The notes under the pieces were generated by a model. The model did not search any database and was not told the origin of the DNA. It saw only the letters and a list, made by a program, of their open reading frames with translations. A program made the translations under genes and the position numbers. A stretch of DNA of 36,692 nucleotides from Bacteroidales bacterium (GTDB taxonomy: Bacteria; Bacteroidota; Bacteroidia; Bacteroidales; P3): the NCBI GenBank assembly GCA_031272705.1, contig JAISTG010000064.1, positions 1 to 36,692 of the forward strand. Direction: 5' to 3'. This document shows positions 8,198 through 35,295 of this stretch, one piece after another (within the stretch, counting starts at the first letter, position 1; the number at the start of each line of letters is the position of its first letter).

Positions 8198-8252
8198 TTT
8201 TAATAATTTAATAAGTGCCTACTCTCTATTTTTAAGTCTATTTTTGGCTTAT

Positions 8253-8453
8253 TCAGACTATATTTCTAAATTTACTAATTTGTATATTTTTATTTAATGT
8301 TAAACGTGTTTTTCTATTATGCGTACATGTACGCACACTCTCCGTACATGTACGCATACCGTCTGTACATGTACGCATACCTTCCGTACATGTACGCATG
8401 CTCTCCGTACATGTACATTTGATTTCTGATATTGTTATTACAAATCTATTCAT
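8253..8453 (-). CDS. Heptad-repeat leader ORF beginning MNRFVITISE (copy 1)
   Basis: 66 codons, ATG at 8453, too close to its promoter for a normal leader (8 nt between the -7 box and ATG). After MNRFVITISE come heptads with Thr at residues 14, 21, 28, 35, 42 and 49, reading TCTE(S/G)(M/V)R, then a basic tail. The repeats are the 21-bp array at 8323-8416 read in frame. A second ORF at 12372-12205 shares the N-terminus and heptad phase and differs within the shared ten codons only at silent third positions, which is evidence for translation. It lies just upstream of the barrel gene at 8197. It resembles no protein I know; it may act as a leader peptide rather than as a stable protein. Confidence 0.55.
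   Translation of the reverse strand: MNRFVITISEIKCTCTESMRTCTEGMRTCTDGMRTCTESVRTCTHNRKTRLTLNKNIQISKFRNIV
8323..8416. repeat. 21-bp tandem array with 12-bp palindrome CGTACATGTACG (5 units)
   Basis: GTACATGTAC starts at 8323, 8344, 8365, 8386 and 8407, exactly 21 bp apart. The 9-bp spacers (CACACTCTC, CATACCGTC, CATACCTTC, CATGCTCTC) vary. On the minus strand they read GAGAGTGTG, GACGGTATG, GAAGGTATG and GAGAGCATG, which resemble the spacers of the array at 31.6 kb. Confidence 0.92.
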
Positions 8454-8461
8454 AGCGGCAG

Positions 8462-8491
8462 CAAAAGTACAACTTTTTTTGAAACTCCCAA
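8462..8491 (-). promoter_or_regulatory. Promoter (-33 TTG / -7 TACTTTTG) for MNRF leader ORF and barrel gene
   Basis: On the minus strand TACTTTTG covers 8469-8462 with TTG at 8491-8489 (19-nt spacer). The ATG of the leader ORF at 8453 is only 8 nt past the box, so the transcript is leaderless or nearly so. Confidence 0.7.
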
Positions 8492-8664
8492 AATCTGTGT
8501 TAAAAGTTTGTTTGCGCCAGCCTTTGGTGTGAGCGCGACACGCACTGCACCAACACGGAAGCACTAAAAATAAAACAATAAAAGCGTGAAATTGCTTGAC
8601 AAATAAAATACCAACATTTTGTACTTTTTATTTTTCCGATTATAGTTAATTCAAAAAGATGTTG

Positions 8665-28256: not shown

Positions 28257-28264
28257 TATTTTTG
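28257..28264 (+). promoter_or_regulatory. -7 box TATTTTTG upstream of structured leader RNA
   Basis: It precedes the folded region by about 60 nt; the first transcribed bases would be near CCGCCTTG. No TTG at standard spacing. The 28051-28256 stretch shows nothing else. Confidence 0.45.
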
Positions 28265-28323
28265 CCGCCTTGTTTATCAAAAATAGATAAGTAAAATGTA
28301 ATTTCTTATTACGCTTGTTAAAA

Positions 28324-28416
28324 TCTCGCACATTTTGATGAGTTTCTGCTTCAACATAAGGCTTTGTTGCTACGTGAGTCTTATGCTTTATATGAAGCGG
28401 AGGGTCTTGTGCGAGA
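28324..28416 (+). ncRNA. Candidate structured RNA: three nested helices upstream of an HTH gene
   Basis: Three co-axial helices nest without overlap. P1 is 28324-28332/28408-28416 (TCTCGCACA/TGTGCGAGA, 9 bp perfect). P2 is 28347-28353/28393-28399 (TGCTTCA/TGAAGCG, 7 bp with one U-G). P3 is 28355-28364/28376-28385 (CATAAGGCTT/GAGTCTTATG, 10 bp with two G-U) closing an 11-nt loop. Internal loops are 14/8 and 1/7 nt. It may be a cis-acting leader of the HTH gene at 28454 or an independent small RNA. It does not match a riboswitch class I know. Confidence 0.5.
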
Positions 28417-28453
28417 ACCTTACAGGCGGATAAGAGTAAGAGGCTCACATTTA

Positions 28454-28762
28454 ATGCAATATAATAGAAACATACATATAGGAAAAGCCATTAAGGCAAA
28501 ATTTGAAGAGCAAAAAGCAAATGGGGAAATTACAAAAAAAGAATTTGCCAATCGGTTGAATTGCTCCTATCAAAATCTGTATCATATTTTTAATTCACAA
28601 GATATTTATGTTTCACAACTTGTTAAAATTTCAACAATACTTAACTTTAATTTTCTTTCTTTATACCAAAATGATAAGATAACAGAGCAGAATAAAACAG
28701 AAATAAAAATGGCTTTAATCATAAAAGATGGGAATATAATTATAAGTAAATTAAAGGATTAA
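28454..28762 (+). CDS. Small helix-turn-helix DNA-binding protein
   Basis: 102 residues from ATG 28454. The middle (IGKAIKAKFEEQKANGEITKKEFANRLNCSYQNLYHIFNSQDI) is a Cro/CI-type HTH: KKEFANRLNCSYQNLYHIF is the helix-turn-helix pair, followed by VSQLVKISTILNFNFLSLY, the last helices of the domain. A short tail (IKMALIIKDGNIIISKLKD) may dimerise. The frame is open further upstream but would run through the folded leader RNA. Two overlapping inverted repeats directly downstream (28766-28810) could be its binding sites. Its target is probably the next gene or itself; that is inference. Confidence 0.75.
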   Translation: MQYNRNIHIGKAIKAKFEEQKANGEITKKEFANRLNCSYQNLYHIFNSQDIYVSQLVKISTILNFNFLSLYQNDKITEQNKTEIKMALIIKDGNIIISKLKD

Positions 28763-28765
28763 TAG

Positions 28766-28810
28766 AAATGTAAATATCTTTTACATTTTTGTAAGTATTA
28801 TTTACAAAAA
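28766..28810. promoter_or_regulatory. Two overlapping inverted repeats, possible operator or terminator
   Basis: AAATGTAAA/TTTACATTT (28766-28774/28780-28788) and TTTTTGTAA/TTACAAAAA (28786-28794/28802-28810) share bases 28786-28788, so only one can form at a time as RNA. They lie between the HTH stop and the next promoter's -33 box (28815). As DNA they offer repeated TGTAAA/TTTACA half-sites. Confidence 0.5.
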
Positions 28811-28814
28811 TCCC

Positions 28815-28846
28815 TTGCATGCTATTTACTTTTATCAATACCTTTG
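28815..28846 (+). promoter_or_regulatory. Promoter (-33 TTG / -7 TACCTTTG) of lipoprotein gene
   Basis: TTG 28815-28817, TACCTTTG 28839-28846, spacer 21 nt. It leaves a leader of about 130 nt that contains a 19-codon ORF (28861-28920). Confidence 0.7.
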
Positions 28847-28977: not shown

Positions 28978-29469
28978 ATGAAAAGAACATTGATAGTTTT
29001 AGGTACGACAGTACTAATGAGTTTAGGATTGTTAATCTCTTGCGGAGACGACGAAAAGGATTTCGCACAAAACAACAATCAAAATGTTAAACCTGATATT
29101 GCTTCATTACAGAAACTTATGGTTGCTGGTCCAAATGACACAATAGTAGAATCATGGGAAGGAATATGGAAATCTAGTACATTAGAGTGCATAGAACATG
29201 ACCCTCCACGTAATTGTGGATACATGAGGATTAAAATTGGTTCTGCTCTTTCTGCTGTTTCCGGTGGTTTTGGAGATGCTATTGACAACGGTAACCCGGA
29301 ACCTTACATTACTGAAAATAGAGATGTATTAAACAGGCTATTCAGTGAGGAACTAATGGATAATGTTTTGTCCGGCGAAAGTACTGTTAGGTATGAAAGT
29401 AATGAAGGAAAATCTACTTTTATATTTTCAAGTCCTAATTACACTTCCTTATTTGTATTAGATAAGTAA
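28978..29469 (+). CDS. Small hypothetical lipoprotein, probably surface-exposed
   Basis: 163 residues. Lipoprotein signal peptide MSLGLLISC with Cys22, followed by GDDEKD, an acidic run like the Bacteroidota lipoprotein export signal that directs lipoproteins to the outer face. The mature part is short and shows no known domain; it has a Cys pair (LECIEHDPPRNCGY) likely to form a disulfide and ends with two beta-like strands (STFIFSSPNYTSLFVLDK). It has its own promoter and a strong terminator. The function is unknown. Confidence 0.75.
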   Translation: MKRTLIVLGTTVLMSLGLLISCGDDEKDFAQNNNQNVKPDIASLQKLMVAGPNDTIVESWEGIWKSSTLECIEHDPPRNCGYMRIKIGSALSAVSGGFGDAIDNGNPEPYITENRDVLNRLFSEELMDNVLSGESTVRYESNEGKSTFIFSSPNYTSLFVLDK

Positions 29470-31268: not shown

Positions 31269-31486
31269 GTCCCAATAACGGTTTTTTACTTACCGATTAA
31301 CATCTGCAAAAATTACAATGATAAATATCAAGGCAATTTAAGGTGTCTTTTTACCTTATTTTTTTGTTGCAAAAGTACAACTTTATTTTGAATTTTTCGC
31401 TCTAAAATCTTGTGTAACTGAAAACTATTTTGTGCGTGTTGCACTCACTCCAACAAACCAAAAAAAACATATCAAAAACTAAAAGT

Positions 31487-31879
31487 ATGATTATCAAACC
31501 ATTAAAGAGTGTTCCGAAAGGATTTTGGGTCGTACGGAAAACCGTAAAAAACGTTACAACGACTTTCTGTAACGTTACGGAAAGTTATTGTAATGTTACA
31601 GAGAGTTATTGTAACGTTACAGAGAGTTGTTGTAATGTTACAGAGAGTTATTGTAACGTTACAGAAGGTTGTTGTAACGTTACAGAAGGTTATTGTAACG
31701 TTACAGAGAGTTGTTGTAACGTTACAGAAAGTTATTGTAACGTTACAGAAAGTTATTGTAACGTTACAGAGAGTTATTGTAACGTTACAGAAAGTTGTTG
31801 TAACGTTACAGAAACGATAAAAACCGGAATTTTTAGATTTTATAATATAATATATACTAATAATTATTATTCCTCATAG
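31487..31879 (+). CDS. Heptad-repeat ORF, (C)NVTE(S/G)(Y/C) repeats
   Basis: 130 codons from ATG 31487. About 20 basic/hydrophobic residues (MIIKPLKSVPKGFWVVRK) precede some 13 heptads, mostly CNVTESY or CNVTESC, then a tail TIKTGIFRFYNIIYTNNYYSS. The repeats are the 21-bp array at 31568-31819 read in one frame; a second forward frame is also open across the array, as is common in such DNA. The heptad TE(S/G) echoes TCTE(S/G) in the leader ORF at 8253-8453. There is no signal peptide, no clear promoter and no Shine-Dalgarno. Either a small repeat protein or a non-coding array with an open frame by virtue of its period. Confidence 0.35.
   Translation: MIIKPLKSVPKGFWVVRKTVKNVTTTFCNVTESYCNVTESYCNVTESCCNVTESYCNVTEGCCNVTEGYCNVTESCCNVTESYCNVTESYCNVTESYCNVTESCCNVTETIKTGIFRFYNIIYTNNYYSS
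31568..31819. repeat. 21-bp tandem array with perfect palindrome TGTAACGTTACA (12 units)
   Basis: Twelve units start every 21 bp from 31568 to 31799, with a degenerate unit before (AACGTTACA near 31552). Palindromes are almost invariant (TGTAACGTTACA; TGTAATGTTACA twice), while 9-bp spacers vary between GAGAGTTAT, GAAAGTTAT, GAGAGTTGT and GAAGGTTGT. It lies downstream of btuG between convergent transcription units. Confidence 0.95.
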
Positions 31880-33056: not shown

Positions 33057-35048
33057 TTAATTGAATTTATAATTTATTTTTATCCTAAATTGACGCAAGG
33101 GCATAGGATAATTTTTTACTATTTCATACTGATAATTCAGTAGATTAAGAACCGACAGCGACAAAACAAAATTCTTCCCAAACTTTTTCTGCAAACCGAC
33201 ACTGTGTTCGCAGTAAGCATCAAGACGATTTGCCGCAATGTTTTCGTTTAAGGCGTATCGCTTGCCCATAAACGAAAGAGTATATGAAGCCGACCACGAT
33301 TTGAAATCAACTATTGCAAGTATTGAGCCGCTGTTTCGTGGAGTGTAAGGTATTTGCTGTTGATAAGTGAGGCTTGTTTCTTCATTATCTACGGCGTATT
33401 GAAAGGAATAAGTCCCTTGAAGGTGCAGATTTACGCTGCGAATGTTAGTTCTGATGCTCGCTAACAGGTCTATACCGCTCACCTGTACCTTTCCGTAATT
33501 GAGCATTGACCATACAAAAAGATTCCTTTGAGGCATTGCCACTATTTTATCAAGAACCTGATTGTAATAAGCGTCAAATGAGGTGTTTAATTGCAAGAAA
33601 CGCTTTGTTGAAAAGTTTTTGCGATAAGCCCAATGGAAATTAAACTGCTTTGTTCTTTCGGGTTTTAAGTTTGGAGTGCCGATGCGGTTATAGTAAAGTT
33701 CGTTAAAGGTCGGGTAACGCTCAATATCCTTATAGAAGATACTGAATGCGAAGTCCTTAAACCTGTATCCGAGAGACAGAAACGGGTGAATACCGTACTT
33801 TTTGCTCTCCATATATTCGTATGATGTGTTATCGTGATAACAGGTGTGCAGAATATTGGCATTGAAAGTAAAACTGTACAGGTCAAAAGCAAAAATGGCT
33901 GCCGTCAAAGAGGAAAAACGCTTGGGTGAAACGGCTACATTGGCGGTTGCATCAAGAGTATTGTAAGTCAAATCGTTGGTTAATGAAATTCCAAGTTGTT
34001 TTGATTGGTACGAAAATACGTTATTGACATATCCTTCCTTTTGTTGATAAATATCACTCTGGAATCCGTTGGCGTTAAGCACCTGTCCATCAAAATAATG
34101 CGTAGAAACAACGGATACCTTGCTATAATTGCGATAGGTGAAATGCTCATTAAAGTTATGTGTAAGGACACTTTGAGCAAAGGCATTCCTGTCCCAAAGT
34201 CGCTGATGGCTGTTTAAGTAATAGTAAATGGTCGCAGAGGGCAAGCCACGATTGCTGTAAAAGTAATAAAACTTTAATTTTAAGTCCGTTTGTGAAGAAA
34301 AAGTGATGTAATTATTCCATTCCGTTCGCAGGGAAAGCAGGTCTGCATTTGTGCGTCTTTCTTTGGAGGTACTGTCTCCCTCATTCCGTCCGTAGCGAAG
34401 CAGATACGGATAGTTGCCTGCCGAATTTATAAAATCAAAATCAAGAGTAGTTATCCATTTTTCAGTCATTTTCAGCGCCAAAGCGAAACCGGGATTAAAG
34501 TAATTGAACGAACCATAAGAACAGAAGGCATTTACCTTTGCTCTTTCCCGCATTTCAAACTTCGGCTTAATCGTTTCAATCATAAATATATTTGAAGAAG
34601 AAAGTGCTTTTGCAGGTTGTAACAGATTGAAATCCGCTCCGTTACTCATATTTACTTCTTTTATGTTGGCGGTAGAGTATTTGCTTAAATCAATTTGCCC
34701 GTTCATATAATCCGAAACGGAAATTCCGTCATACATAACTGCCGTATGGCTGGTGCCTAATCCCCTTACACTTATGGTTTTCAAGCCTCCCAGCCCGCCA
34801 TAATCCTTAACGGTTACGCCGGGAATAAATTTTGCAATTTCGCCTGCCGATGTTACCGACTGCTTTTCAATAAGCGTTCTGTCAATATGCACATTGCTCT
34901 GTTCCAATGGACGTTGGCTCATGGCGGAATCAACAATGGTTATGGTTGGCAGTTGATATTGGCGTATCGTGTCCTCATTTTGAGAGAACGAACCAAAGGG
35001 TAAATAACCCAGAATCAGCATTATGAATATTCTTTTACAACAAATCAT
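33057..35048 (-). CDS. btuB: TonB-dependent vitamin B12 receptor, BtuB-like
   Basis: 663 residues. Signal peptide ends near GSFSQ. A plug domain (about residues 30-160: AGEIAKFIPGVTVKDYGGLGGLKTISVRGLGTSHTAVMYDGISV) is followed by a 22-strand-type barrel (for example NELYYNRIGTPNLKPERTKQFNFHW, a TonB-receptor signature) to the C-terminal strand FRIKINYKFN. No extra carboxypeptidase-like N-terminal domain is seen, unlike SusC. It carries cobalamin across the outer membrane using TonB energy. Its leader holds a cobalamin riboswitch and btuG follows, so substrate assignment is strong. The ATG at 35048 begins 44 nt after the riboswitch. Confidence 0.94.
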   Translation of the reverse strand: MICCKRIFIMLILGYLPFGSFSQNEDTIRQYQLPTITIVDSAMSQRPLEQSNVHIDRTLIEKQSVTSAGEIAKFIPGVTVKDYGGLGGLKTISVRGLGTSHTAVMYDGISVSDYMNGQIDLSKYSTANIKEVNMSNGADFNLLQPAKALSSSNIFMIETIKPKFEMRERAKVNAFCSYGSFNYFNPGFALALKMTEKWITTLDFDFINSAGNYPYLLRYGRNEGDSTSKERRTNADLLSLRTEWNNYITFSSQTDLKLKFYYFYSNRGLPSATIYYYLNSHQRLWDRNAFAQSVLTHNFNEHFTYRNYSKVSVVSTHYFDGQVLNANGFQSDIYQQKEGYVNNVFSYQSKQLGISLTNDLTYNTLDATANVAVSPKRFSSLTAAIFAFDLYSFTFNANILHTCYHDNTSYEYMESKKYGIHPFLSLGYRFKDFAFSIFYKDIERYPTFNELYYNRIGTPNLKPERTKQFNFHWAYRKNFSTKRFLQLNTSFDAYYNQVLDKIVAMPQRNLFVWSMLNYGKVQVSGIDLLASIRTNIRSVNLHLQGTYSFQYAVDNEETSLTYQQQIPYTPRNSGSILAIVDFKSWSASYTLSFMGKRYALNENIAANRLDAYCEHSVGLQKKFGKNFVLSLSVLNLLNYQYEIVKNYPMPLRQFRIKINYKFN

Positions 35049-35091
35049 AAAACAACTTTATCCTCGAAAGTTTTTAAACTTTATAATTTTT

Positions 35092-35250
35092 GGCAGGTTT
35101 TCTGACTTGTTCCCAATCAAGTTGCCTTCCCATTTTTCACAGTGGCAAAAGATTTACCCGATTGTTTTTTTGGAACTTACAGCAGCGGGACTGTACAGGA
35201 TTCTCACCTGATTCCCTTTTGCATCTTCGCCCGTAGGACTACAGGAAAAG
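35092..35250 (-). promoter_or_regulatory. Cobalamin riboswitch controlling btuB-btuG
   Basis: Read on the minus strand, the leader contains the conserved GGGAATCAGGTGAGAATCC and TACAGTCCCGCTGCTGTAAG cores, the B12-box GCCACTG, and a closing AGTCAGAAAACCTGCC, in the order expected for AdoCbl riboswitches. It begins close to the transcription start and ends about 44 nt before the btuB ATG, which fits control of expression by cobalamin. No intrinsic terminator follows, so translational control is likelier. Confidence 0.95.
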
Positions 35251-35265
35251 AACCAAAAACGGCGG

Positions 35266-35295
35266 CAAAAGTACAAAAAAAATCAATACGTGCAA
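35266..35295 (-). promoter_or_regulatory. Promoter (-33 TTG / -7 TACTTTTG) of B12 uptake operon
   Basis: TACTTTTG from 35273 to 35266 and TTG 35295-35293, spacer 19 nt; transcription should start near 35261, just before the riboswitch. Confidence 0.75.

Follow-up and report, generated by a model that had tools for sequence, protein, structure and literature searches.

A multicopy family of structured leader RNAs in Bacteroidota and its proposed action as a pairing switch

Members of the Bacteroidota are dominant in the gut and in many soils and waters; RNA-level control in this phylum is, to our knowledge, little understood. The preQ1, SAM-II and ZTP riboswitches lie in 5′ leaders, carry conserved unpaired residues, adopt compact pseudoknot folds and use a terminator or a start codon as their platform. 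Riboswitches for c-di-GMP (GEMM) occur in many copies per genome before unrelated surface and regulator genes. The leader described here, located ahead of a small HTH gene in the window (the whole stretch of 36,692 nucleotides that was analysed), resembles the former group in leader position, unpaired conserved residues, pseudoknot and terminator or start-codon platform. It differs from them in that the pseudoknot strand itself precedes the U-run, in its far higher number of copies per genome, and in having neither an Rfam match nor a common metabolic theme. With GEMM it has in common its many copies, placed in front of surface and regulator genes that are unrelated to each other, but the fold is another one, no Rfam match was obtained here, and GGDEF synthases are absent from the 61 relatives searched.

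FopS and GibS are likewise multicopy Bacteroidota RNAs tied to surface-protein genes (PMC11697453, PMC7366714); they are short and trans-acting, whereas the present family consists of long folded cis RNAs. FopS RNAs measure about 65-70 nt, act in trans through a 5′ seed and are mostly intergenic or antisense (PMC11697453); compared by description and not by sequence, the leader differs from them in length, fold and position and is not a member. GUCCY-hairpin and Bacteroides-2, two older RNA motifs of the Bacteroidetes, are unassigned and have no entry in Rfam; the latter was reported from one organism only (PMC2864571). The third pairing strand of the leader family often has GUCCC or GUCCG, a likeness to GUCCY-hairpin drawn by description only. 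The RNA is best described as a putative class of leader switch that has unusual traits and lies outside every family tested, GUCCY-hairpin and Bacteroides-2 being known by description only.

Structure of the leader in the window

An earlier note on this DNA had reported three nested helices within 93 nt, behind a TAnnTTTG box and ahead of an HTH gene, as a fold beyond chance. The box and all three helices (P2, P3 and P4) are present (Table 1). The minimum free energy of the 93-nt fold is -38.1 kcal/mol against -21.5 +/- 3.0 in shuffled sequences (z = -5.51), and none of 200 shuffles was as stable. The fold is thus real, but the limits given to it (28324 and 28416) were wrong: on folding of 28265-28470 an outer helix, P1, which is conserved across the family, was found to enclose this core. 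The 93-nt fold is the core of a leader RNA of about 140 nt. The small CTTAC/GTAAG stem (28418-28439) that had been put forward as a competitor for the ribosome site shares positions with the 3′ strand of P1 and is no feature of the family; the conserved partner beside the start codon is GGCTCAC (strand 3). That first description did not include P1, the pseudoknot or the minimal ORF, nor the fact that the RNA is multicopy and mostly has non-HTH neighbours.

For the downstream gene, the Pfam call is weak (HTH_26, E = 0.063, below the cut-off), but the protein aligns with a small-HTH family of Bacteroidota with relatives in its own genome and in other Bacteroidales. In the region 3′ of this gene (28775-28815 and 28978-29469), near-palindromic TTTACA..TGTAA repeats are seen, a possible HTH operator, and a lipoprotein gene also lies behind the HTH gene there. 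A second RNA-HTH-lipoprotein module is present elsewhere in the same genome (L147, C13), with a nearly identical signal peptide (MKRT-IVLGTTVLMSLGLLISCGDDE).

Table 1. Positions of the leader RNA elements and adjoining features in the window
Feature	Position and sequence	Strand	Basis or remark
P2 (helix 1 of the earlier note)	TCTCGCACA 28324-28332 / TGTGCGAGA 28408-28416	+	9 bp
P3 (helix 2)	28343-28353 / 28393-28403	+	includes the 7 bp of the earlier note
P4 (helix 3)	CATAAGGCTT 28355-28364 / GAGTCTTATG 28376-28385	+	10 bp
Strand 1 (P4 5′ strand), alternative partner of strand 2	28355-28364	+	P4 conserved and covarying in family
P1, outer helix	5′ strand CGCTTGT 28312-28318 / 28422-28428	+	folding; covaries in family
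P1 extension	TTCTTATT 28303-28310 / 28429-28436	+	folding
P1 3′ strand with extension	28422-28436, GATAAGAG	+	folding and family covariation
J1/2, conserved internal-loop strand	28319-28323, TAAAA (family consensus GAAA)	+	family alignments
J2/1, conserved internal-loop strand	28417-28421, ACCTT (family consensus ACCTC)	+	family alignments
Strand 2	28374-28385; GTGAGTC 28374-28380, pairing with strand 3; 28376-28385, 3′ strand of P4	+	
Strand 3	28442-28448, GGCTCAC	+	pseudoknot with 28374-28380; ends 5 nt before HTH start codon
Bacteroidota-type -7 promoter box (TAnnTTTG)	28257-28264, TATTTTTG	+	sequence reading
Start-stop minimal ORF in leader	28296-28301, ATG-TAA (AUGUAA in RNA)	+	sequence reading
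Small HTH protein, 102 aa, proposed regulated gene	28454-28762; start codon 28454-28456	+	
Full R1 covariance-model match	28312-28470	+	59.4 bits, E = 1.2e-7, whole-genome search

Covariation and spread of the family

DNA similarity searches with the leader in relatives, plasmids and phages gave nothing convincing beyond the window copy. A strict DNA pattern search of genome contigs matched two ruminant-gut Bacteroidales MAGs, and a looser pattern had no match in viral contigs. The helices diverge too fast for such searches, and therefore the family came to light only when the HTH protein, and after it a covariance model, was used for searching. Regions upstream of the HTH relatives differ in sequence and have one architecture in common: P1, an internal loop (5′ GAAA, 3′ ACCUC), P2, a second internal loop (5′ AAUUUC, 3′ AGGUA), P3 and P4. 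Beyond P1 lies strand 3 (consensus GAUAAG..AAGUCCCACG), to which strand 2, the 3′ strand of P4 (consensus CGUGGGC-UUU-CUUAUU), is complementary. Conservation over the family is modest (0.59 bits per position), and the window RNA is a divergent member.

Covariation, which the earlier note had proposed to examine in homologous HTH leaders, was scored on 34 leaders aligned with MAFFT, without structural guidance (alignment A2). Every pair of P1 and P2 was changed on both sides; the pseudoknot was 83% paired, with changes on both sides at five of its seven pairs, and P4 was conserved as well. The observed covariation score was reached by none of 500 shuffles and collapsed when the partner was slid by one column. 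With 96 sequences, covariation z values were roughly 9-30 for P1 and P2 and 5-9 for pairs of the pseudoknot and P4. In 40 class-wide sequences that had not entered model building, P1 and P2 were 100% paired, a figure biased toward pairing because both helices were in the model. The pseudoknot was absent from the model, so that the same alignment is unbiased for it: six of its seven pairs were 100% paired, against 32-41% in slid controls.

G-U pairs are nearly lacking in P2 (1/657) and scarce in P1 (11/421), in comparison with the pseudoknot (79/585). Within one genome, the J1/2 and J2/1 loop strands of 16 paralogs are 100% and 97% identical, while P1 and P2 are 65-67% identical and differ by 425 double changes and zero single changes. 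The P4 strands are constant as well. A kissing-loop interaction between motifs flanking the P2 arms (UGAAA/UUUCA, AGGU/ACCU) found weak support.

A covariance model built from related HTH leaders (R1) matched 71 of 101 relatives and 27 of 296 genomes sampled from the phylum; its match to the window is not independent, since the window leader sat in the training set. A rebuild from 98 matches (R2), applied with strict filters by which weak copies are lost, identified the RNA in 104 of 395 class genomes and 62 of 197 genera. The window's genome has nine copies at E below 1e-6, about ten in all; 20 are present in G027 and 69, the maximum, in G030. The family spans the class Bacteroidia and beyond, ahead of hundreds of genes in Bacteroidota.

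A lack of compensatory changes and a confident Rfam hit were the two outcomes set beforehand as refuting a new leader RNA. No such hit was obtained: in Rfam 15 the leader region of the window had no match over the gathering threshold, and a permissive scan gave chance-level matches only. The same was seen at gathering thresholds with 18 further members from different clades, and at permissive thresholds with one strong member, where again only chance-level matches appeared. Together with the abundant compensatory changes in the tested helices, these results support the proposal of a new structured leader RNA. Literature searches, of incomplete coverage, found no description of the family, and an earlier one outside Rfam is possible.

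Genomic context and proposed switch

A TAnnTTTG box lies 40-180 nt upstream in 71 of 94 family leaders. In 78 of 96 copies the first downstream gene shares the strand of the RNA; the median distance from strand 3 is 56 nt. Opposite-strand calls number 15, and most of them have the look of spurious ORFs that cover the RNA. The pattern of a same-strand gene close behind recurs in the 40 further class-wide copies. Both the compensatory changes and the placement between a promoter and a same-strand gene are those of a leader RNA. A T-run of at least five follows strand 3 in 70 of the 96 copies (background 6%) and in 36 of the 40 further copies, and start codons often come 0-60 nt after it. Most copies thus have the U-run after the putative terminating helix that is expected of an intrinsic terminator. 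The window copy does not and reads ATTTAATG there instead; three HTH leaders of its own genome (L148, L144 and L147), the window copy among them, are all without a U-run and have strand 3 a few nt from the AUG.

The 89 downstream proteins are mostly non-HTH, so that the window HTH gene is one among many regulated genes. They include eight BspA-type LRR proteins, eight with a TonB plug domain and three DNA methylases, besides type III restriction subunits, helicases, TM2 and CsgG proteins and ECF sigma factors; many others start with signal or lipoprotein sequences, and the genes have no single metabolic theme. The small HTH protein was considered as a required trans factor and rejected, because the RNA-rich genomes G006, G027 and G030 (14-69 copies) lack such a protein at E 1e-5.

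Restriction-modification genes recur behind the RNA in distant families (L113, L116, L140, L201), and by-eye judgement adds L233, L254, L257 and L266. Leaders of one clade (L114, L115, L182-L184, L191, L192, L194, L197) carry GGAGGA motifs resembling a Shine-Dalgarno sequence, which is unusual for Bacteroidota, with no start codon nearby.

P4 and the pseudoknot are mutually exclusive because the same nucleotides are used in both. Strand 3 of a given copy fits its own strand 2 better than does strand 3 of other copies (92/96, p = 8e-17). The nested fold with P4 has a mean energy of -49.1 and the pseudoknot fold one of -45.1 (an estimate with no pseudoknot penalty); the median gap, with this penalty again left out, is 4.6 kcal/mol. 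A plain hairpin of strands 2 and 3 that breaks P1 and P2 is about 20 kcal/mol worse. We consider it likely that the RNA is a cis-acting leader switch in which strand 2 pairs either upstream, in P4, or downstream, in the pseudoknot, and we infer that this choice controls expression. The long P1-P2-P3 hairpin would display strand 2 in its loop to two exclusive partners. Pairing with strand 1 would give the P4 hairpin and the on state, in which transcription continues; pairing with strand 3 would give the pseudoknot and the off state, in which the U-run that comes next would end transcription before the gene. The pseudoknot helix itself would then be the terminator stem in copies with a U-run. 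For the window copy, with no U-run and with strand 3 positioned 5 nt from the start codon, a translational block is proposed instead: the pseudoknot would occlude the start codon and prevent HTH translation, as the position of strand 3 suggests.

Some points stand against this switch. Strand 2 must quit P4 to reach strand 3, and therefore termination needs fast strand exchange or help. Furthermore, some clades have an extra strand after the U-run, for which a simple terminator model has no need; it is complementary to strand 3 in L114-L117 and to the 3′ strands of P2 and P1 (P2′/P1′) in L054, L071, L077 and L099. From its complementarity this strand may form a further switch step in read-through transcripts, although as a general fourth strand it is limited to these clades and is not family-wide. 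Sequence conservation in P4 (strand 1) could also reflect another purpose.

Whether the RNA constitutes an undescribed switch class on the scale of the phylum is, in our judgement, evenly balanced. Such a class would combine a pseudoknot helix acting as terminator stem or start-codon block with up to about 70 copies per genome, constant loops, wobble-free helices and an often conserved AUG-X-stop ORF. If so, one signal would govern a global regulon made up of surface, restriction-modification and regulator genes, and tens of copies per genome before TonB receptors, BspA-like proteins, restriction-modification genes and regulators would amount to a major unannotated regulon. With the covariance model and the covariation-tested structure, the leader family is open to direct testing. 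Its minimal ORF and its helices free of wobble pairs are unusual traits that ask for an explanation.

Input signal and other readings

The input to the proposed switch could be a metabolite, a reading that we put forward tentatively. A metabolite riboswitch is a special case of the switch model with a small-molecule signal; the internal loops GAAA/ACCUC and AAUUUC/AGGUA would form the aptamer, and the ligand would favour the pseudoknot or P4. The constancy of these loops among the 16 paralogs while the helices vary, the closeness in energy of the two states, and the presence of up to 69 copies before unlike genes, as a signalling ligand would give, are in line with it, but the missing metabolic theme and the modest conservation are not. 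The best-known multicopy ligand, c-di-GMP, is unlikely, as a GGDEF domain was found in none of 61 relatives, top-copy genomes included, and was detected in control genomes.

Coupling to the ribosome is a less probable source of the signal. In such an attenuator, a minimal AUG-(X)-stop ORF, located between the promoter box and P1, would report on translation and bias the RNA to P4 or to the pseudoknot. Of 102 leaders, 31 have AUG followed by zero or one codon and a stop, where 14.6 +/- 3.1 would be expected, and AUGs with a stop within five codons have a strong frame bias (58, 31 and 19 for frames 0, +1 and +2). AUG-X-stop is found in 15 of the 18 leaders of one clade, where X is ACA, GCA, TCA, ATA, ACU, AAA, AAU or GAA and the stop UAA or UAG; its retention while X and the stop vary argues for translation and against a nucleotide motif. 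The window has its own AUGUAA. However, the minimal ORF occurs in only about half of the leaders and lies a median of 64 nt upstream of P1, and therefore a ribosome there would not contact the switch directly.

Control by a putative RNA-binding factor, such as a protein of the RRM type, which would read the constant loops and P4 and set the choice of partner, is doubtful to the same degree. The constancy of the loops and P4 strands is consistent with it, and in Bacteroides multicopy RNAs are regulated by RbpB, which is an RRM protein (PMC11697453). The small HTH protein is not the required factor, being missing from G006, G027 and G030 at E 1e-5.

It is improbable that the copies are stand-alone RNAs, the alternative given in the earlier note. 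On this reading each would stop at the U-run and work in trans, as the FopS sRNA paralogs of Bacteroides do. An own promoter box, a terminator-like end and a multicopy family would suit this reading, and multicopy FopS RNAs that repress SusC-like genes are a precedent (PMC11697453). But nearly all copies lie directly before a same-strand gene that starts soon after the RNA, often within 0-60 nt of the U-run, and at about 140-160 nt they are long and highly folded compared with FopS and its short length and 5′ seed.

A DNA-level element, such as a recombination site or a mobile inverted repeat, is very improbable: the scarcity of G-U pairs in P1 and P2 looks as if pairing were required of both DNA strands, and several copies lie near contig ends, but the pseudoknot covaries with ordinary G-U content, and this, together with the promoter, the U-run and an orientation that is fixed with respect to the gene, fits an RNA. 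On reading 28300-28450, the RYYYAAC ... GTTRRRY core boxes of integron attC sites were not seen. A group II intron or retron remnant, considered because the fold is nested, was set aside with no Rfam intron match and no adjacent reverse transcriptase noticed.

Elsewhere in the window, a cobalamin riboswitch (Rfam RF00174, 92.3 bits) at 35075-35272 on the minus strand lies immediately upstream of a TonB-receptor-like gene (33057-35048, minus strand). ORFs made of short tandem repeats (NVTESYC.., CTESMRT..) at 31430-31879 and about 8250-8565 are probably low-complexity intergenic repeats and not genes.
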